NCBI GenBank assembly: GCA_009782915.1
Contig: WRIC01000002.1
Location: 62,001 to 126,000, forward strand
Origin: Propionibacteriaceae bacterium
GTDB taxonomy: Bacteria > Actinomycetota > Actinomycetes > Propionibacteriales > Propionibacteriaceae
DNA length: 64,000 nt
Direction of reading: 5' to 3'
Shown here one piece after another: positions 1 to 48,658 of the stretch. The translations under genes were made by a program, and so were the position numbers. The number at the start of each line of letters is the position of its first letter. The first letter of the stretch is position 1. The notes beneath the pieces were generated by a model, which was given only the letters and a program-made list of their open reading frames with translations, made no database searches and was not told the DNA's origin.

Positions 1-98
1 CTCTGGACGTGTGCACAGCCACGGCCTGCGATGCTCTAGGGTTGTTTTCCGGTGGTTCTGGTGAGTCACCAAAATAAACATCCCGAAAGGATAAATAC

Positions 99-899
99 AT
101 GACACGAATGATGAAGATCATGGCAGGTATTGCCGGTGCAGCCCTCCTGCTGAGCGGGTGCGGCACAAAAGTTGAAGACGATACGACACCAGCAGATCCC
201 GATGCAATCACCACCGTGGTTGACGGGAAACTGACCATGTGCTCAGACATCCCCTTCCCCCCCTTCGAGGTTGAGGATTCCGCCGCCCCACTGGGTTACT
301 CCGGTTTTGATGTGGACCTCATGAACGCTATCGCTGGCATCCTGGAGCTGGAGCTTGTTGTGGTGGTGTCCGACTTCGATGCCTTGCAGTCTGGTGTGAC
401 CCTCGCCAACGGCCAATGTGATCTCGCTGCCTCGGCGATGACGATCACAGAGAAGCGCAAAGAAAACATTGACTTCTCTGATGCCTACTATGACTCTTTG
501 CAGTCACTGATGGTCCCGGCAAACTCCGAGATCACCTCGATTGCTGATCTTGCAGGAAAGCGGGTTGGTGTCCAAGCTGGAACAACAGGCGAAAACTACA
601 CCGAAGAAAACGCCCCTGAGGGTGCCGACATTGTCAGCTTCCCTGATGACGGCGTGATGTGGCCTGCCATCCAGGCCGGCCAGATTGATGCAATCTTGCA
701 GGACTACCCGGTGAACAATCAGCACGTCAAGGATGATGCGGGTTACAAGATTGTTGAGCGCTATGAAACAGATGAGCAGTACGGCTTTGCCATGCTCAAG
801 GGTGGTAATCCTGCCCTACTGGCAGCCATTAACTCCGCTCTTGGCGAGTTGCGCGCCAATGGCACCTATCAGGAGATCTACGATAGGTATTTCGGCTAA
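99..899 (+). CDS. Polar amino-acid ABC transporter substrate-binding lipoprotein
   Basis: Lipobox LLLSGCG; periplasmic binding protein family 3 pattern (DIPFPPFEV..GFDVDLMNAIA..); followed by permease and ATPase. Confidence 0.92.
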   Translation: MTRMMKIMAGIAGAALLLSGCGTKVEDDTTPADPDAITTVVDGKLTMCSDIPFPPFEVEDSAAPLGYSGFDVDLMNAIAGILELELVVVVSDFDALQSGVTLANGQCDLAASAMTITEKRKENIDFSDAYYDSLQSLMVPANSEITSIADLAGKRVGVQAGTTGENYTEENAPEGADIVSFPDDGVMWPAIQAGQIDAILQDYPVNNQHVKDDAGYKIVERYETDEQYGFAMLKGGNPALLAAINSALGELRANGTYQEIYDRYFG

Positions 900-941
900 C
901 CAAGCAGTGATTCCACACGGAATCTCTTCTTAAGGAAAACT

Positions 942-1742
942 ATGGACATGCGTGATATCCGTCCAACCGTCAGGCGGCGGATATCACGCATGTTGTCTTA
1001 TCTCATTTTCCTGGGGCTCATTGTTGCACTGGCTTTCACAGCGGATTGGGCTTTGATCACCAAAGTCTTCCTCAACAAAGATATTGCTCTAGGAATGTTC
1101 CCTGGGGTGTTTCGGGCAGCACTCAACACGATCCTCTACACCCTGATTGCTTTCGTTATCGGACTGGTCCTTGCGATCGTACTGGCTCTGATGAAATTAT
1201 CCTCAGGCCCATTCAAATGGTTTGCTGTGGGGTTTATTGAACTGTTCCGCGGGCTGCCGGCGTTGTTGACTATTTTCATCATGGCGTTTGCTGTGCCCAT
1301 GGCTTTCGAATCATTGAGGGCCTTGCGCATTGAGGGGGTCTACTATGGTCTGATCGGGCTGGTTTTCGTCACAGGTGCCTACACCGCAGAGATCATTCGA
1401 GCAGGAATCCAGGCTGTTCCCCGCGGGCAACATGAGGCAGCTCGATCCCTGGGCATGTCCCAGATGAGAACAATGATCACTGTTATTCTACCGCAAGCCA
1501 TCCGCATTGTGATTCCCCCTTTAACCAATGAGCTCGTCATGCTCCTGAAAGACACCTCGCTTTTGTTCATCGCCGGGGCAACCAAGGCAAACAAGGAGCT
1601 CACCCAGTTCGGTCGAGACGGAATGTCCTCCCATTTCAACTCGACACCCTTGCTCGTGGTGGCCGTGTTCTATCTCATCATCACTATTCCACTGACCTAT
1701 CTGGTGGCGCGCCTGGAGAAGAAAATGGCGGTGAAACAATGA
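942..1742 (+). CDS. Amino-acid ABC transporter permease (HisM/GlnP type)
   Basis: Hydrophobic; [26 protein letters not shown] permease signature; operon context. Confidence 0.92.
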
Positions 1743-2515
1743 CCACCACCGGCGTACTGCATCCGCGAGACACCCCTGACCCTCAGGCCCCACCAATCCA
1801 GATTCTCGGGCTCCACAAGCATTTTGGTGACCTGCACGTACTCAAAGGAATCGATCTCACCGTGAACAAGGGTGAGGTTGTGTGCGTGGTGGGACCCTCC
1901 GGTTCAGGGAAGTCGACCCTGCTGCGTTCAGTGAACCTGTTGGAGCGCCCCACGCAGGGCAAGGTTTTCATCGAGGGGATTGACGTCCTTGACCCGGATG
2001 TGAACCTCGATTTGATTCGTACGCGCATTGGCATGGTTTTCCAATCGTTCAACCTTTTCCCCCATATGACTGTCCTGCGTAATGTGGCGATGGCTCAGCA
2101 GAAGGTTCTACGCCGTTCGAGCGTGGAGGCCAACAAGATAGCCCACGATATGTTGGTACGGGTGGGGCTGGAGGATAAGGTTGATGCCCATCCTTCGCAG
2201 TTGTCGGGTGGTCAGCAGCAGCGGGTGGCGATCGCTCGTAGCTTGGCGATGAACCCGGACATGATGCTGTTCGATGAACCCACTTCGGCTCTAGACCCTG
2301 AGCTGGTTGGTGAGGTTCTGGAGGTCATGAGGGGTCTCGCAGCCGAGGGAATGACCATGATGGTGGTCACCCACGAAATGGGTTTCGCCCGCGAGGTCGG
2401 CTCCCGAGTGATCTTCATGGACGAGGGCCTCATCGTCGAGGAAGGCCTCCCCTCCGAGGTCCTCGGCAACCCCCAACACCCCCGCACCCAACTTTTCCTC
2501 TCCAAGGTGCTCTAA
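1739..2515 (+). CDS. Amino-acid ABC transporter ATP-binding protein (GlnQ-like)
   Basis: Walker [26 protein letters not shown] signature, Walker [15 protein letters not shown]; overlaps the permease stop. Confidence 0.95.
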
Positions 2516-2516
2516 C

Positions 2517-2547
2517 GTGTCAAACGGGGACGGTTCCTTTTTGACAC
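2517..2547. repeat. GTGTCAAA-N-TTTGACAC palindrome with CGGGGACGG core (palindrome family 2, copy 1); possible terminator
   Basis: GTGTCAAACGGGGACGGTTCCTTTTTGACAC, 8-bp perfect arms directly after the ATPase stop codon. Confidence 0.7.
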
Positions 2548-2556
2548 GCTTGCCTC

Positions 2557-2850
2557 GTCATTCCGCGCTCCTCTTTCCCTGTCCGTGCCCCTCTTCCCCG
2601 TCATTTCGCGCTCCTCTTTCCCGTCATTCCGCGCTCCTCTTTCCCGTCATTCCGCGCGTAGTCGCGGAATCCAGACTCCACAGTCATACAACTGGGTAGT
2701 CTGGACCCTGCGACTTCGCGCAGGGAGACGGCAGGGAGACGGCGGGGAGACGGCAGGGATACGGCAGGGATACGGCGGGGAGGCGGCAGGGAGACGGCGG
2801 GGAGACGGCAGGGAAACGGGAGGGAGACGGCAGGGAAATGAGGCGGTGGG
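2557..2850. repeat. REP/BIME-like locus A: 23-bp left-edge repeats, bipartite hairpin core (2646-2729), 11-bp right-edge repeats
   Basis: GTCATTCCGCGCTCCTCTTTCCC units at 2600 and 2623; core GTCATTCCGCGCGTAGTCGCGGAATCCAGA...TCTGGACCCTGCGACTTCGCGCAGGGAGAC; then GGGAGACGGCA-type units with period 11. Confidence 0.85.
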
Positions 2851-2880
2851 ACAAAACAGTACCGTCCCCCAAATTGTCAC
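2848..2880. repeat. Palindrome family 2, copy 2 (inverted orientation)
   Basis: GGGACAAAACAGTACCGTCCCCCAAATTGTCAC; reverse complement aligns with the copy at 16407-16439. Confidence 0.6.
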
Positions 2881-2898
2881 GTCCGATAGAGTAGGACT

Positions 2899-5151
2899 GT
2901 GGTTGATACTGTGACACAAGCTGAGCAAACTCCGGACACTATCCAGCCGTGGGCTGAGTTGGGGCTCAAAGAGGACGAATACCAGCTCATTCGCGAGATT
3001 TTGGGGCGCAGACCCACCTCCTGTGAACTGGCGATGTATTCGGTGATGTGGAGTGAGCACTGCTCGTACAAATCCTCCAAGATTCATCTCAAGCGCTTTG
3101 GTGTGCTGGAACCCACGACACCTCGTGGTCCACTATTGGCTGGCATCGGTGAACAAGCTGGTGTGGTGGACATTGGTGACGGTTGGGCGGTGACCTTCAA
3201 AATCGAATCCCATAATCACCCGAGTTATGTGGAGCCCTATCAGGGGGCCGCCACCGGTGTGGGTGGGATTGTGCGCGACATTCTCGCCATGGGGGCCCGC
3301 CCGATTGGGGTCATGGATCCTTTGCGCTTTGGCCCTTTGGATGCGCCGGATACTGCCAGGGTGCTGCCAGGTGTGGTTGCGGGAATCGGCGGGTACGGCA
3401 ACTGTTTAGGTCTTCCCACGATTGGTGGAGAGGTTGTTTTCGATTCGACGTACGCCGGGAATCCGCTGGTCAATGCGCTGTGTATCGGGGTGTTGCGCCA
3501 TGAGGATATGAAGAGAGCTGTAGCTGAGGGGGTCGGCAACAAGGTCATTCTCTATGGGGCAGCCACCGGTGGTGACGGGATCGGTGGAGCATCGATTCTT
3601 GCCTCGGAGACTTTTACCGAGGGTGGGCCCACGAAGAGGCCCAGTGTTCAGGTGGGTGACCCGTTCATGGAGAAGCTCCTGATCGAATGTACGCTGGAAC
3701 TCTTCGAAGCCGGGGTCATCCAGGGAATCCAGGATTTCGGGGCCGCGGGCCTGTCATGCGCCACCTCGGAACTGGCATCAGCTGGGTCCGGTGGGATGCA
3801 TGTCAACCTCAACGCCGTACCCCTGCGTGATCCTTCACTGGCGCCTGAAGAGATTCTGATGAGTGAATCCCAGGAACGCATGATGGCTGTGGTCACACCC
3901 GCTGATGTGGATCGGTTTATGGCTATCTGTGCGAAATGGGAGGTTCTCGCCACAGTCGTGGGCGAAGTCATTGAGGGTGATCGTCTGCTCATCGACTGGA
4001 ATGGTGAGCGCGTGGTGGATGTGGACCCGAAAACGGTCGCCCATGAGGGCCCCACCTATGATCGTCCCGTAGCTCGCCCCGCGTGGATTGATGGTGTGAA
4101 TGCCAATCGAGGAGAGGATCTGCCTCGCCCTACCACTGGTGAAGAGTTGGCCCGCGACCTGGTGGCGGTTATGACTTCCCCGAATCTTGCCGACGTTTCC
4201 TGGGTGACCAGGCAGTACGACCATGTGGTTCGCGGGAACTCGGCAATGGCGCAACCGGAGAATGCTGGGATGCTGAGGATCGATGAGGAAACCGGGTTGG
4301 GTGTCGCTTTGTCGACAGATTGCAATTCCCGGTTCACCTATCTTGATCCTTTCTTGGGCGCCCAGATTTCTCTCGCCGAGGCGTACCGTAATGTGGCGAT
4401 CACTGGAGCTGAACCGGTGGCGATCACTGATTGTCTGAACTTTGGTTCCCCGGAAGACCCAGAGATCATGTGGCAGTTTGTGGAGGCCATCAAGGGTTTG
4501 GTCGAGGGCTGCCAAGCCTTGGGTACGCCGGTCACCGGTGGCAATGTGTCGTTCTACAACAAGACTGGTGAGACCGCGATCCTGCCCACACCCACCATTG
4601 GAATGCTCGGGGTGATCGACAACATTGCTGACCGTATTGGTTTCCAGTCGCCTTGTGTGGGGGATCACGTGTTGTTGCTGGGTGAGACTTTTGAAGAACT
4701 CTCTGGTTCTTCCTGGGCTGAGGTCGTTCATGGACATCTGGGTGGTGTCCCGCCCAAGGTGGACTTCAGTTTTCACAAGCGACTCACCGAGTTCTTCCAG
4801 GTGGTGTCCAAAACCCACTTGGTGTGTTCCTCCCACGATCTTGCTGATGGTGGTCTGGGGGTTGCACTGTTGGAATCCTGTTTCGCTTCGGGTTTGGGGG
4901 CGCAGATCACCCTGGAAGGCGATCCTTTCGTGGCCTTGTTCTCTGAGTCAACCGGTCGCGTACTCATCACGTGTGAGGACTCCAACCTGCCCCACCTCCA
5001 AGCCCTAGCCGAGAAGTGCGCCCTGCCTCTCACGCACCTGGGCAAGGTCATCGAAGAACCACAGCTGGTTGTCACCGATCAGTTCACCCTCAACCTCGAG
5101 GACGTACGCGTTGCTTGGCAATCCGTCATCCCCGATGCCCTGAGCTCGTAG
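2899..5151 (+). CDS. purL: Phosphoribosylformylglycinamidine synthase subunit PurL
   Basis: 750 aa; [31 protein letters not shown] motifs; GTG start. Confidence 0.96.
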
Positions 5152-6593: not shown

Positions 6594-6637
6594 AGGAGTC
6601 TCCTTGGGGCAGACTCTACTAGGTTCCTGATGTGATT

Positions 6638-6710
6638 TCTGGATTCTGCGAGTCGCGGAGCCTGTGCTGCGGAGCGCGCCAGCGCGACTCGCAGTGCTCC
6701 GCAGAATGAC
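6638..6710. repeat. REP-like right arm with nested GC-rich loop insertion (locus B1)
   Basis: TCTGGATTCTGCGAGTCGCGGAGCCTGTGCTGCGGAGCGCGCCAGCGCGACTCGCAGTGCTCCGCAGAATGAC. Confidence 0.75.
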
Positions 6711-6779
6711 CGAGGTGGGTTGGTTCCGAAGGATAACTGGTTGAGTGGGTTTTTGTTCTGCGGAGTGTAACTCGCATAC

Positions 6780-7118
6780 GTCATTCCGCGCGAAGTCGCG
6801 GAATCCAGATAGTGATTGCCACGGATGGTGAGTCTGTTAGTGGTGAGCATATTTACTAGACTCAATAACATGGTTGATGTGGATTCTGGATTCTGCGACT
6901 TCGCGCAGAATGACGCAGGGCAGTTGGTGCCCTTTGCGTGCTGTCCGTCTGCGCGCGGCAGAATGACGCGGGGCAGTTGGTGCCCTTTGCGTGCTGTCCG
7001 TCTGCGCGCGGCAGAATGACGCGGGGCAGTTGGTGCTCTTTGCGTGCTGTCCGTCTGCGCGCGGCAGAATGACGCGGGGCAGTTAGTGCCCTTCGCGCGC
7101 TGTCCGTCTGCGCGCAGA
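6780..7118. repeat. REP-like locus B2: left arm (6780-6809), right arm (6885-6914) and about four 53-bp tandem repeats
   Basis: AGAATGACGCGGGGCAGTTGGTGCCCTTTGCGTGCTGTCCGTCTGCGCGCGGC starts at 6907, 6960, 7013, 7066. Confidence 0.85.
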
Positions 7119-7222: not shown

Positions 7223-7283
7223 TTTGCACTCTCGGGGTGAGAGTGCTAGAAATGACTTAGCACTCTTGGTGTGAGAGTGCTAC
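7223..7283 (+). promoter_or_regulatory. Two tandem CIRCE elements (HrcA operators)
   Basis: TTTGCACTC-N9-GAGTGCTAG (7223-7249) and TTAGCACTC-N9-GAGTGCTAC (7257-7283). Confidence 0.95.
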
Positions 7284-12809: not shown

Positions 12810-13577
12810 ATGACCATCAAAGTGGACGCTGTCGCAGCAGCAGGAGTCGATGAAGCCCTGCTGGCTGTTCTCTCCGAAGCTGGTGAAGGCCATGTCGGTG
12901 ATCATGTTGGTGTCTACGCTGAAGCAGAACGCCAAGTCACCCATGTTTTCGAATGTCTCCATCCTGGTTACCAGGGGTGGCATTGGGCTGTCACACTGAC
13001 TCGCGCCCCACGGGCGCGAACAGTCACCGTCGACGAAGTGGTTCTCCTGCCTGGTGAGGATGCCCTTCTCGCGCCACGGTGGGTGCCGTGGGCGGAAAGG
13101 ATAGCTCCAGGTGATGTGGGCCCAGGAATGCTCATGGCAACCCCCCCTGAGGATCCCCGACTTGTGCCTGGGTATACGGCGGGTTCTTCCACAACCACGG
13201 AAGAAGAAGCCATGGAAATCCGCGCAGTAGTGCGCGAACTAGGTTTAGGACGTACGCGCGTACTCAGCAAAGAGGGGCGGGATTCCACTGCTGAACGCTG
13301 GTTGAAAACACGTGGACCTGAGGCAAGTGAAGCCCGTCAAGCACCTGCCCCCTGCTCAACCTGTGGTTACTTCCTTCGCTTGCGCGGAGAACTCGGCGCC
13401 GTCTTTGGGGTGTGTAGCAATTCCTTCTCCAGTACGGACGCGGGTGTGGTCAGCATCGAATATGGTTGTGGTGCCCACTCAGATGTGGTGGAAGAACGCC
13501 GGGGAATACACCTGCCCGAAGTGATGTGGGATGACTCAGCACGAATGACCAGTGGAGAAACCTGCCTGTTTGACTGA
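12810..13577 (+). CDS. DUF3027-family protein
   Basis: GYQGWHWAVTLTRAPRARTVTVDEVVLLPGEDALLAPRWVPWAERI..CSTCGY; adjacent to the csp gene as in other actinobacteria. Confidence 0.8.
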   Translation: MTIKVDAVAAAGVDEALLAVLSEAGEGHVGDHVGVYAEAERQVTHVFECLHPGYQGWHWAVTLTRAPRARTVTVDEVVLLPGEDALLAPRWVPWAERIAPGDVGPGMLMATPPEDPRLVPGYTAGSSTTTEEEAMEIRAVVRELGLGRTRVLSKEGRDSTAERWLKTRGPEASEARQAPAPCSTCGYFLRLRGELGAVFGVCSNSFSSTDAGVVSIEYGCGAHSDVVEERRGIHLPEVMWDDSARMTSGETCLFD

Positions 13578-13678: not shown

Positions 13679-13798
13679 GTCATTCCGTGCGAAGTCACGG
13701 AATCCAGACTCCACAGTTGCACCACTGGGTAGTCTGGGCCCTGCGACGTAGCCTGTGCTGCGGAGCGCGCCAGCGCGACTCGCAGTGCGCAGGGTGAC
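13679..13798. repeat. REP/BIME-like locus C, right arm carrying the nested loop insertion
   Basis: GTCATTCCGTGCGAAGTCACGGAATCCAGA-CTCCACAGTTGCACCACTGGGTAG-TCTGGGCCCTGCGACGTAGCCTGTGCTGCGGAGCGCGCCAGCGCGACTCGCAGTGCGCAGGGTGAC. Confidence 0.85.
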
Positions 13799-17569: not shown

Positions 17570-17642
17570 GGCCCCGTAGCTCAGTGGATAGAGCGAAGGT
17601 TTCCTAAACCTTGCGTCGTAGGTTCGACTCCTATCGGGGCCG
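17570..17642 (+). tRNA. tRNA-Arg (anticodon CCT)
   Basis: Cloverleaf: acceptor GGCCCCG/CGGGGCC, D-arm GCTCAGTGGATAGAGC, anticodon arm AAGGT-TTCCTAA-ACCTT, T-arm GTAGG-TTCGACT-CCTAT. Confidence 0.95.
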
Positions 17643-17654
17643 CCCCGAACCCCC

Positions 17655-17781
17655 GTCTCCCTGCGCACTGCGAGTCGCGCTGGCGCGCTCCGCAGCACAG
17701 GCTACGTCGCAGGGTCCAGAATACCTAGTTGTTCGACTGTGGAGTCTGGATTCTGCGAGTCGCAACGCTGCGCAGAATGAC
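17655..17781. repeat. REP/BIME-like locus D, inverted orientation, directly after tRNA-Arg
   Basis: GTCTCCCTGCGCACTGCGAGTCGCGCTGGCGCGCTCCGCAGCACAGGCTACGTCGCAGGGTCCAGA...TCTGGATTCTGCGAGTCGCAACGCTGCGCAGAATGAC. Confidence 0.8.
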
Positions 17782-25935: not shown

Positions 25936-25979
25936 CTTAGCATGACAAACCGGGACGCAGGTGTGTTTGCCCCACCCCC

Positions 25980-26600
25980 GTCATTCCGTGCGTAGTCACG
26001 GAATCCAGACTCCATAGTCCCACTGCGGTCATTCCGTGCGTTGTCACGGAATCCAGATTCCATAGTCCCACTGCGGTCATTCCGTGTGTAGTCACGGAAT
26101 CCAGATTCCATAGTCCCACTGCGGTCATTCCGTGTGTAGTCACGGAATCCAGATTCCATAGTCCCGCTCCGGTCATTCCGTGTGTAGTCACGGAATCCAG
26201 ACTCCACAGTCCCACCCCCGTCATTCCGTGCGTAGTCACGGAATCCAGACTCCATAGTCCCACTCCGGTCATTCCGTGTGTAGTCACGGAATCCAGACTC
26301 CACAGTCGTAAAAATGTGGATTCTGGACCCTGCGACTTCGCGCAGGGTGACCGAGTTAGACCCTGCGACTTCGCGCAGGGTGACCGGGTTAGACCGTGTG
26401 ACTTCGCGCAGGGTGACCGGGTTAGACCGTGTGACTTCGCGCAGGGTGACCGAGTTAGACCCTGCGACTCGCAACAACTCCCGCGTCACCCTGCGGAGCG
26501 GAGCGACTCGCAACAACTCTCGCGTCACCCTGCGGAGCGGAGCGACTCGCAGGGTCCAGACTACCTAGTTGTTCGACTGTGGGTTCTGGATTCCTGCCAA
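25980..26600. repeat. REP-like locus E: seven 48-bp left-arm units, four 33-bp right-arm units, then further arm copies
   Basis: 48-bp units start at 25980, 26028, 26076, 26124, 26172, 26220, 26268; 33-bp GACCCTGCGACTTCGCGCAGGGTGACCGAGTTA-type units start at 26326, 26359, 26392, 26425. Confidence 0.95.
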
Positions 26601-26686
26601 GTCGCTTTGCTCCGCGGACGAAAGACACCCCAACCGTCGGCATTTGGCACGCCCCCTGTTTGTCCTACAGGCGTAGAGTAGGGGGT

Positions 26687-28090
26687 ATGAGTAGCAACCT
26701 TGATCGGAAGAACAGATGGACTTTTTCGGTGGGGACTCTGGGGCGCGACATGGTGTACATCCTGATCTCGATGTTTTTGGTGAATTATCTGATTGATCTT
26801 CAACTCGACTCCAAGGTTTTTGCTGCGGTGTCAACGCTGATCCTCGCGGCCCGGCTCTTTGATGCGGTCATGGATTTCGTGATGGGGTCGATTGTGGATA
26901 ACACCCGCTCGCGGTGGGGGCACTACAAACCGTGGATTTTCGCTGGCATGCTCGCTTCGGGGGTTTTCACGATCCTGCTCTTCACTGATCTGGGGTTATC
27001 GGGTGCAGGTTTTGTGATCGTCTTCGCTGGCATCTACCTGATGTGGGGGTTGAGCTGGACGATGAACGACATCCCGTACTGGTCTCTCATGCCAGCCCTC
27101 ACCCTCGACCAAAAGGAACGCGAAAGAATCAGTGCGCGTGCCAAAATCTTCGCCACTATTGGTACCTTCGCTGTGGTGGTGGCTATCGTGCCCTTCGTCG
27201 AGGCTCTCACCCCACGAGTTGGAATGAGCAGATCCTGGTTGCTGTTCGCAGTGATTGTTGTCGCGGTTATGACTTTCTTCCAGTCGGTCACCCTCCTAGG
27301 AACCAAGGAACCAGATCTCGTTGTCGAGCAGGACAAAGTCAGCGCCAGGGAAGTCTTCCAGGTGGTGGCGAAAAACGATCAACTTCTGTGGACAGCCGTC
27401 GCCATGGTTTGTTTCATGACCGGGTATCTCACCTTGTCGAGTTTTGGGGTGAAATATTTCGAACACATCTATGGCAACAAGGACATGTTTTCTCCCTTTG
27501 GCGCGGTCATGGGTGTGGGCATGATTTTAGGGTACGTGCTGTTCCCTGTCCTGCGGGCGCGGATGTCACGCCGTACCCTCTACACGCTGGCAACAGCCCT
27601 CGTGGTCACAGGGTACGTGATCTTCTTTTTTGCCCCACCCAACATCCTCATCGTCGGTGTGGCCGCATTGTTGCTCTTCTTTGGAACCGCGGTCATCATC
27701 GTACTCATGTTGGTGTTCATCTCTGACACCATCGACTACGGTCATTGGAAACTCGGTAGACGCAACACCGCCCTCACCTTCGCTCTGCAACCCTTCATCT
27801 CAAAGGTCGGCGCTGCCCTCGGTACGATGATTGTGGCGATGACCGCTATAGCCACCGGCCTCAACCAGCTCACCGATGATCAACTCGATGGATACATCCT
27901 GGGTGCTTCGGATCAACTCACCTTCAAACTCATCATGATGGGCTTGCCGTTGGTTCTCACACTAGTGGGATACGGAATCTATCGCTGGAAGTATAGAATT
28001 GATGAAGCTTTCCACGCCCAAATCCTCGCCGATCTTTCAGAGCGTGGACAACTCATCGACGAAGCAGTGGAGTCATCTAAGGAGGCATGA
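26687..28090 (+). CDS. GPH-family (glycoside-pentoside-hexuronide:cation) MFS transporter
   Basis: FSVGTLGRDMVYILISMFLVNYLID; FDAVMDFVMGSIVDNTRSRWGHYKPWIF. Confidence 0.9.
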   Translation: MSSNLDRKNRWTFSVGTLGRDMVYILISMFLVNYLIDLQLDSKVFAAVSTLILAARLFDAVMDFVMGSIVDNTRSRWGHYKPWIFAGMLASGVFTILLFTDLGLSGAGFVIVFAGIYLMWGLSWTMNDIPYWSLMPALTLDQKERERISARAKIFATIGTFAVVVAIVPFVEALTPRVGMSRSWLLFAVIVVAVMTFFQSVTLLGTKEPDLVVEQDKVSAREVFQVVAKNDQLLWTAVAMVCFMTGYLTLSSFGVKYFEHIYGNKDMFSPFGAVMGVGMILGYVLFPVLRARMSRRTLYTLATALVVTGYVIFFFAPPNILIVGVAALLLFFGTAVIIVLMLVFISDTIDYGHWKLGRRNTALTFALQPFISKVGAALGTMIVAMTAIATGLNQLTDDQLDGYILGASDQLTFKLIMMGLPLVLTLVGYGIYRWKYRIDEAFHAQILADLSERGQLIDEAVESSKEA

Positions 28091-31808: not shown

Positions 31809-31882
31809 AAGCTCGCTTCTGTGTGGTGAACCCCCCAAGCTTACTGGAAACCCCGCCCGCATCTCTCACCTGCGCACCCTCC

Positions 31883-32240
31883 CCGGTCTTTCTGCGCACC
31901 CAACCCGGTCATTCTGCGCACCCAACCCGGTCATTCTGCGCACCCAACCCGGTCATTCTGCGCACCCAACCCGGTCATTCTGCGCACCCAACCCGGTCAT
32001 TCTGCGCACCCAACCCGGTCATTCTGCGCGAAGTCGCAGAATCCAGACTTCACAGTCGGACTACTGTGGGGTCTGTGGGGAACGGTCGAGTTTGCCAGAC
32101 TCATCATTGTGCTGAGTGTGATATCTGGACCCTGCGACTTCGCGCAGGGTGACGGGGTGTTGGGCTGACAGGGTGACGGGGTGTTGGGCTGACGGGGAGA
32201 CGGGGTGTTGGGGTGGCAGGGTGACGCGGTGTTAGGGTCA
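31883..32240. repeat. REP/BIME-like locus F: 22-bp left-edge tandem array, core arms (32018-32047; 32124-32153), four 24-bp right-edge repeats
   Basis: GCGCACCCAACCCGGTCATTCT period 22; CAGGGTGACGGGGTGTTGGGCTGA-type units start at 32145, 32169, 32193, 32217. Confidence 0.9.
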
Positions 32241-48571: not shown

Positions 48572-48658
48572 GTCATTCCGCGCGAAGTCGCGGAATCCAG
48601 ATACCACAGTTTCAGAGAAGGGGACAGGCCCGACTGTCACACGGGAACCGTCCCTTTA
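48572..48658. repeat. REP-like single left arm (locus G) followed by a GGGAC/GTCCC inverted repeat
   Basis: GTCATTCCGCGCGAAGTCGCGGAATCCAGA at 48572-48601; AAGGGGACAGGCCCG...CGGGAACCGTCCCTTT at 48617-48657. Confidence 0.7.

Follow-up and report, generated by a model that had tools for sequence, protein, structure and literature searches.

A dispersed paired-hairpin repeat of the CGTC-tagged REP kind in a Propionibacteriaceae genome

Between a gene for a GlnQ-like ABC ATPase (1739-2515) and purL (2899-5151), both on the forward strand, the 64,000-nucleotide stretch of Propionibacteriaceae DNA that was analysed here (the window) contains an exact 84-bp head-to-head hairpin pair at 2646-2729, which can be read directly from the window. 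The pair and the tandem repeats around it are laid out as follows.

2556-2657, forward strand: tandem 23-mers, flank plus left stem strand (CGTCATTCCGCG + CTCCTCTTTCC)
2646-2675, forward strand: A-arm, with tag GTCA, 7-bp stem TTCCGCG/CGCGGAA, 6-nt loop CGTAGT and tail TCCAGA
2676-2699, forward strand: connector of 24 nt between TCCAGA and TCTGGA, with a nearly constant A side (CTCCACAGT) and a B side that falls into subtypes
2700-2729, reverse strand: B-arm, with tag GTCT, stem CCCTGCG/CGCAGGG and loop CGAAGT (as read on the reverse strand)
2720-2836, forward strand: tandem 11-mers GCAGGGAGACG, from the right stem strand and tag

Read on the forward strand, the right arm is TCTGGA-CCCTGCG-(ACTTCG)-CGCAGGG-AGAC, and the REP/BIME-like architecture with paired inverted arms proposed in the first-pass annotation of this DNA is thereby borne out. 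As a single strand, the 2646 copy folds with z = -7.6 relative to shuffled sequences, and a second complete copy, at 26268-26351, with z = -8.0. The latter is predicted to form three hairpins; the 2646 copy favours one long hairpin because its own two arms can pair with each other. Apart from one tRNA, no Rfam family scored above the gathering score in the window.

The window contains many additional arms, including those that had been named previously at 13679, 25980 (the first unit of a seven-unit array) and 32018, all of which are present as described.

6599-7115, mixed strands: mosaic of A-type arms at 6710 (reverse, 49-nt loop), 6780 (forward, 6-nt loop) and 6914 (reverse), then a 53-mer array at 6905-7115
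13679-13798, forward strand: dimer of an A-arm (6-nt loop) and a B-arm (42-nt loop)
17655-17781, reverse strand: dimer directly 3' of a tRNA gene (17570-17642), with the B-arm on the left and the A-arm on the right
25971-26307, forward strand: seven 48-bp units, each an A-arm, half a connector and a 9-nt flank
26268-26351, forward strand: complete 84-bp dimer that closes the 48-mer array
26326-26469, reverse strand: tandem 33-mers, B-arm plus 7-nt flank
26464-26593, forward strand: 39-mer array, then another B-arm (13-nt loop) whose connector leads into a decayed A-arm
31870-32047, forward strand: 22-mer array (flank plus GTCATTCTGCG) running into the A-arm at 32018
32124-32233, reverse strand: B-arm with its tag at 32153, then a 24-mer/8-mer array of stem-and-tag units
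48572-48601, forward strand: single A-arm

All tandem arrays reported in the window derive from hairpin arms. A CIRCE-like inverted repeat (TTAGCACTC...GAGTGCTA) lies at 7255-7282, upstream of groEL (7324).

Allowing up to three mismatches, the arm pattern matches the 1,639,263-base draft genome (G000) 119 times on the forward and 101 times on the reverse strand, and the same pattern read backwards has no match on either strand (0 + 0), so that the approximately 220 arm matches are not due to chance. When the criteria were relaxed and further loop lengths allowed, 754 kb of sequence yielded 232 arms at 103 loci; the stretches behind this detailed census were picked partly for holding copies, and the whole-genome figures are pattern counts. 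Next to an arm stem, TCCAGA-N-TCTGGA occurs 155 times (both strands combined), in 145 cases with a spacing of exactly 24 nt, and a count on one strand gives about 71 A+B dimers with this spacing (70-71). All typable pairs combine an A-arm (TTCYGYG) with a B-arm (CCCTGCG), with zero A+A and zero B+B pairs, a composition with a chance below 1e-20 under random joining. The element is an obligate heterodimer of an A-arm and a B-arm that are almost always 24 nt apart; the dimers are approximately 84-134 bp long, and across copies the connector has the same nearly constant A side and a B side that falls into subtypes.

When arms are picked by tag, loop and tail, with no demand made on pairing, 7 or 8 of the 8 pairs are present in nearly every one. 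In an alignment of 47 distinct arms (4 rows of which were added by hand, from pattern matches and other loci), standard pairs fill 95.2% of the pair cells compared to 85.5% after shuffling, double-sided changes number 55 compared to 16.0, and the covariation score is 0.439 compared to 0.238. None of 500 shuffles reached the observed value for any of these three measures, in agreement with the previously noted covariation of the stems, and the signal is lost when the partner is shifted by 1-3 columns. Five pairs vary on both sides among the 47 distinct rows; the covariation consists mostly of four pairs that toggle between C-G and T-A, and the independent changes behind it may be few. A strand-specific fold was considered and rejected: the excess of G.T wobbles on the A-forward strand (56 versus 4) is mostly accounted for by a single A-arm lineage and by the outermost, often unpaired position, and amounts to about 9 versus 4 when counted by distinct change.

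Contrary to the first-pass annotation, the GTCA tag is not fixed: GTCT is common, even in the right arm of the 2646 copy, and for this reason the outermost pair is often open (12 of the 47 rows), which leaves a conserved stem of 7 bp. The tail, also described as fixed, is so only in part, with TCCAGA dominant, CCA nearly constant and the last bases variable. GTC itself is present in nearly all arms, and the base before it is C in 63% of the arms, G in 24%, T in 7% and A in 5%, with CGTC or TGTC in approximately 70%. The ~10 nt outside the tag of G000 arms are strongly C-rich and G-poor (roughly CCCCAMCCCC), a feature that seems less pronounced outside this phylum. The element may therefore extend beyond the two hairpins, or it may favour C-rich targets.

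The loops fall into classes of 6 nt (CGNAGT), 13 nt (GAGCGNAGCGACT), 18 nt and ~49 nt, the last of these containing the tip of an arm with the 18-nt loop, nested within the 13-nt type. Loci with the 49-nt loop, in which the tip of one arm seems to lie inside the loop of another, are found on contigs C1, C2 and C3 of G000 (e.g., window 6710), and the nesting suggests that the hairpin tip was a site of insertion or conversion. Comparison with a relative, G152 (WRIJ, MAG Propionibacteriaceae Nt197P3bin38, whose counts and positions equal those of the genus member G167), which is collinear with G000 C2 37-94 kb at ~70-85% identity, bears on the same subject. The window region 6599-6860 is common to both genomes (206 bp at 90%), and its two arms, which have 49-nt and 6-nt loops in G000, have 13-nt and 18-nt loops in G152: loops are exchanged in place between arms. 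Given that loops were swapped in place and arms amplified locally, the covariation is not direct proof of selection on the fold, as had been claimed; the complementarity of the strands could also be maintained by template-directed correction of the palindrome or by gene conversion. The covariation supports the view that the hairpin matters for maintenance of the repeat, rather than specifically selection for a host function.

In the same comparison, the copies at six further sites fall in gaps between collinear matches. The gap measures 248 bp in G000 versus 14 bp in G152 at the C2:60353 copy, 187 versus 18 bp at window 17655, 751 versus 26 bp at 25980-26593 (block 25944-26696), 394 versus 35 bp at 31870-32233, and 435 bp versus 283 bp that lack an arm at 13679. 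At the 2646 copy, the gap is 2885 versus 18 bp, and this site is not a dimer-only difference because the adjoining amino-acid ABC transporter genes (99-2515) are missing in G152 as well, window positions 1-2884 being replaced by the 18 bp. Thus, at least six sites are empty in G152, with gain in G000 and loss in G152 indistinguishable at ~70-85% identity. Because the A+B make-up and the 24-nt connector are constant, the flanks differ and the relative's sites are empty, the dimer rather than the single arm is the unit multiplied in this genome. The copies sit among unrelated housekeeping genes, and therefore segmental duplication is not their general source; together with the empty sites, this speaks against the possibility, raised at first pass, that copies arose only by recent segmental duplication.

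Arms are also amplified locally. We identified 152 merged tandem arrays in the 754 kb, of which 78 contain arm sequence, 22 contain GGGGAC sequence and 52 contain neither, with 29 of these 52 located within genes. The period is 21-27 in 52 and 48 in 9 of the 78 arm-bearing arrays. The 21-27-mers consist of ~10-13 nt of local flank and the outer stem strand, and most of these repeats stop 8-15 nt inside the element, close to the tip of the hairpin; many of the 48-mers stop about halfway along the connector. Since the flank portion is not the same at different loci, the arrays grew in situ. Hairpins act as seeds of local tandem arrays, with most units terminating close to a hairpin tip.

Some copies are located inside genes. 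In a gene for an OppF-like ABC ATPase (L134:12952-14070), a dimer lies in frame in the stretch that follows QIQDGLDAA, and G061, a member of the same genus that lacks the arm pattern, has a far shorter linker at this point; the preceding OppD-like protein has a C-terminal end that is another dimer, read in the same frame. These dimers, at L134:12812-12895 and 13417-13500 (G000 C1), are thus found in adjacent oligopeptide ABC-ATPase genes, one as a C-terminal extension and the other in a linker inside the ABC domain, and both translate as VIP(R/C)EVAESRLHSCATA(S/D)SGPCDFAQGDG. In-frame intragenic CGTC repeats are known from Rickettsia conorii (PMC3733652).

Outside genes, copies are enriched between convergent genes (31 of 84, compared to 20% of intergenic bases; p = 0.0003), as described for CGTC-tagged REPs (PMC3733652), and show no bias in orientation relative to genes (19 versus 22), counts that rest on rough gene calls from a simple home-made caller. 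An RNA function set by gene orientation was rejected on account of this lack of bias. Among 19 genomes of the genus, arms are present in 4 (220, 78, 39 and 4 arms) and absent from 15. These figures have to be weighed against selection of the repeat as a signal in the genome or in RNA (at transcription ends, in mRNA stability, or as a gyrase or nucleoid site), in which case the hairpin would be kept for a host function. The covarying stems, the strong fold and the enrichment between convergent genes are compatible with such a role, but the 15 arm-free genomes, the unbiased orientation and the many copies that are degraded, tandem-amplified or within coding regions are not what it predicts, and we regard it as improbable.

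Beyond the genus, arms were detected in 6 of 148 genomes in a sample of the family and, with a covariance model, in 6 of 398 genomes in a sample of the phylum, where only the source genome scored above 33 bits. Searches of named genomes yielded at least 54 stretches with an arm among the matches listed, from Propionibacteriaceae, Coriobacteriia, Zoogloeaceae/Azoarcus, Burkholderiales, Clostridiales/Oscillospiraceae, Nomurabacteria, Geobacteraceae and other MAGs; a search of plasmids and phages found no match to the arm. The 30-nt arm is thus present in MAGs of several phyla, which among the matches listed come mostly from termite guts (counting JAIR, JAIS and JAIT records, which we take to be termite-derived), a proportion that is not a measured enrichment rate. 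The sample codes Nt197, Emb289, Lab288 and Cu122 denote termite gut metagenomes (PMC7024585). Carriers elsewhere have up to 141 arms per genome, spread over many contigs, and connectors are lineage-specific (e.g., the short Azoarcus type in L041 and L079), which in high-copy genomes argues against mis-binning; mis-binning is possible for L077 and other small single contigs. On a Zoogloeaceae contig (L032), an arm with a 6-nt loop neighbours arms that read GTCATTCCCGC(GTAG)GCGGGAATCCAG and have the look of published CGTC-1.

One candidate for a mobilising enzyme is a Y1 (RAYT/IS200) transposase, and an orphan protein of this kind had been suggested at first pass as the thing to look for. A search with the PF01797 profile, in which the controls were positive, found no Y1 protein in G000, G022, G100 or G152, and hence none in the source genome or in the relatives with 78 and 39 copies; the estimated completeness is 93.5% for the G000 assembly and 96% and 98% for the two carrier relatives. 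Across 23 carrier genomes, some Y1 protein is present in 9 and absent in 14, and no arms were found at the Y1 loci of other carrier genomes, two of which (L090 and L092) contain GGGGAC repeats instead, in keeping with the TIR-flanked tyrosine transposases described in PMC3733652. The repeats could still be classic REPs/REPINs mobilised by a RAYT that is missing from an incomplete assembly or was lost after amplification: REPINs likewise pair tag and hairpin head to head, some carriers do encode Y1 proteins, and loss of RAYTs in some strains has been described (PMC3733652). Yet the negative searches in the source genome and its relatives, and the separation of arms from Y1 loci elsewhere, agree with the published survey, in which CGTC REPs apparently lack a dedicated transposase and are not associated with transposase genes (PMC3733652), and we consider mobilisation by a RAYT unlikely. 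The REP class assigned at first pass accordingly holds as regards the REP-type tag and hairpin, with the element belonging to the CGTC-tagged rather than the RAYT-mobilised GTAG REPs.

Phage integration at dRS3 of Neisseria prompted a search for IS110/Piv DEDD transposases, which, among eight carriers, scored above the cut-off only in G150. Sub-threshold IS110 matches in G000 and G022 fall in open frames of 1449 and 1491 amino acids; no convincing IS110 transposase was found in the source genome or in two carrier relatives. The weak IS110-type (RuvC-like) match of the 1449-aa frame is located at G000 C6:52377-52628 (L154), and the size of this frame suggests a Cas9-like protein. An autonomous element bounded by arms was also considered and rejected: of 30 scanned genes located between close arm loci, 29 match housekeeping or metabolic families and one had no match. 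In the open literature, no later paper that names a transposase for CGTC REPs was found; RepRanger (2025) and a 2018 HuH phylogenomics paper mention CGTC only when citing PMC3733652.

A second abundant repeat family, GTGACAAAAGGGGACGG(GGCG, TACTG, TATGAA and others)TTTGTCACA, is dispersed genome-wide and has copies at window 2526-2547 (forward) and 2869-2848 (reverse). Of the 103 CGTC loci, 23 have such a GGGGAC repeat nearby, whereas random intergenic points gave a mean of 9.4 and a maximum of 17 in 500 draws. This association, the bracketing of several dimers (that at 2646 included) by inverted GGGGAC repeats, and the Y1 genes located among GGGGAC repeats in other carriers would fit a dimer that travels as cargo in a larger GGGGACGG...GTCAC repeat, that is, a TIR-type repeat of a tyrosine transposase. 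The bracketing is not needed, however, because approximately 80 of the 103 CGTC loci have no GGGGAC repeat within 300 bp; furthermore, the source genome has no Y1 gene and the repeats of Neisseria interleave without common mobility (PMC3733652), so that we find the cargo scenario highly improbable.

The repeat is real and of a mobile type, although no movement was observed. In our view, it is probably a dispersed, non-autonomous CGTC-type REP heterodimer, served by an enzyme that acts in trans on the folded single strand in a genome with no resident Y1 or RAYT, and accompanied by arrays made by slippage. The enzyme would read the tag and hairpin on the single strand much as RAYTs do for GTAG REPs, and might belong to an unrecognised family or be supplied transiently. 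Slippage or template switching provoked by the hairpins would build the arrays and help keep the stem strands complementary; no host function need be assumed, and side effects at the 3' ends of genes are possible. A broader proposal, which we put forward only tentatively, is that CGTC dimers form a mobile class with trans-acting machinery of its own, distinct from Y1 and IS110, and that the 30-nt arm crossed between phyla in termite guts, with the dimers built within each lineage. A genome this small that holds more than 200 arms, alongside genomes of the same genus that have 0 to 78, makes a tractable case, with sites that are empty in a relative, dimers inserted in frame, loops exchanged at a shared copy and one arm sequence found across several phyla, mostly in a single habitat; with carriers and non-carriers in one genus, a search for the missing enzyme is feasible.

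Compared to known systems, the element resembles the GTAG REPs and REPINs that depend on RAYT (TnpA-REP) in the combination of tag and hairpin, in the head-to-head pairing, which allows a single long hairpin to form, and in high-copy intergenic dispersal, but differs from them in the tag (GTCA/GTCT) and in the lack of a Y1/RAYT in the source genome and in two carrier relatives. With the BIMEs of E. coli, it shares mosaic intergenic clusters of inverted palindromic units and alternative loop lengths, whereas sequence and tag are unrelated, and the element here has a fixed heterodimer, an exact connector and arrays whose growing unit combines flank and stem strand. The intergenic mosaic elements of Neisseria (dRS3 + RS repeats), compared by description and partly after PMC3733652, likewise interleave CGTC-type arms with other repeats; the interleaved partner here is the GGGGACGG...GTCAC repeat.

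The closest match is with the CGTC-tagged REPs, defined by Di Nocera, De Gregorio and Rocco (2013) as families CGTC-1 to CGTC-4, which include dRS3 of Neisseria and RPE-4/RPE-6 of Rickettsia (PMC3733652). We place the element with these rather than with GTAG REPs because of the GTC(A/T) tag, the CCA tail and the head-to-head heterodimers. By the published description, such REPs have an unpaired CGTC (or TGTC, CCTC) tag at one end, an 8-9 bp stem whose first two positions are a complementary AT, a loop of 4-5 nt with exceptions noted, and a short unpaired tail, mostly CCA; they form mainly head-to-head dimers, with negligible head-to-tail pairs and rare clusters, large ones being found in Neisseria and Wolbachia (PMC3733652). 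The element agrees with them in a GTC tag mostly preceded by C, the A-arm stem starting with AT, the CCA tail, head-to-head dimers that are often heterodimers with a conserved connector, the location at gene ends, the intragenic copies and the lack of an associated transposase. A-arms (ATTCYGYG) fit the published stem, whereas the B-arm starts with ACCC/TCCC; GTCT is a common tag, and the eighth pair is open in arms that carry it; A+B pairing is strict, with a 24-nt connector and frequent tandem arrays; and the hosts, Actinomycetota and Clostridia, lie beyond the five phyla listed in PMC3733652. Because the loops are 6, 13, 18 and ~49 nt long rather than 4-5 nt, none of the four named families fits, and the element is a variant of the CGTC-tagged REP kind outside these families.
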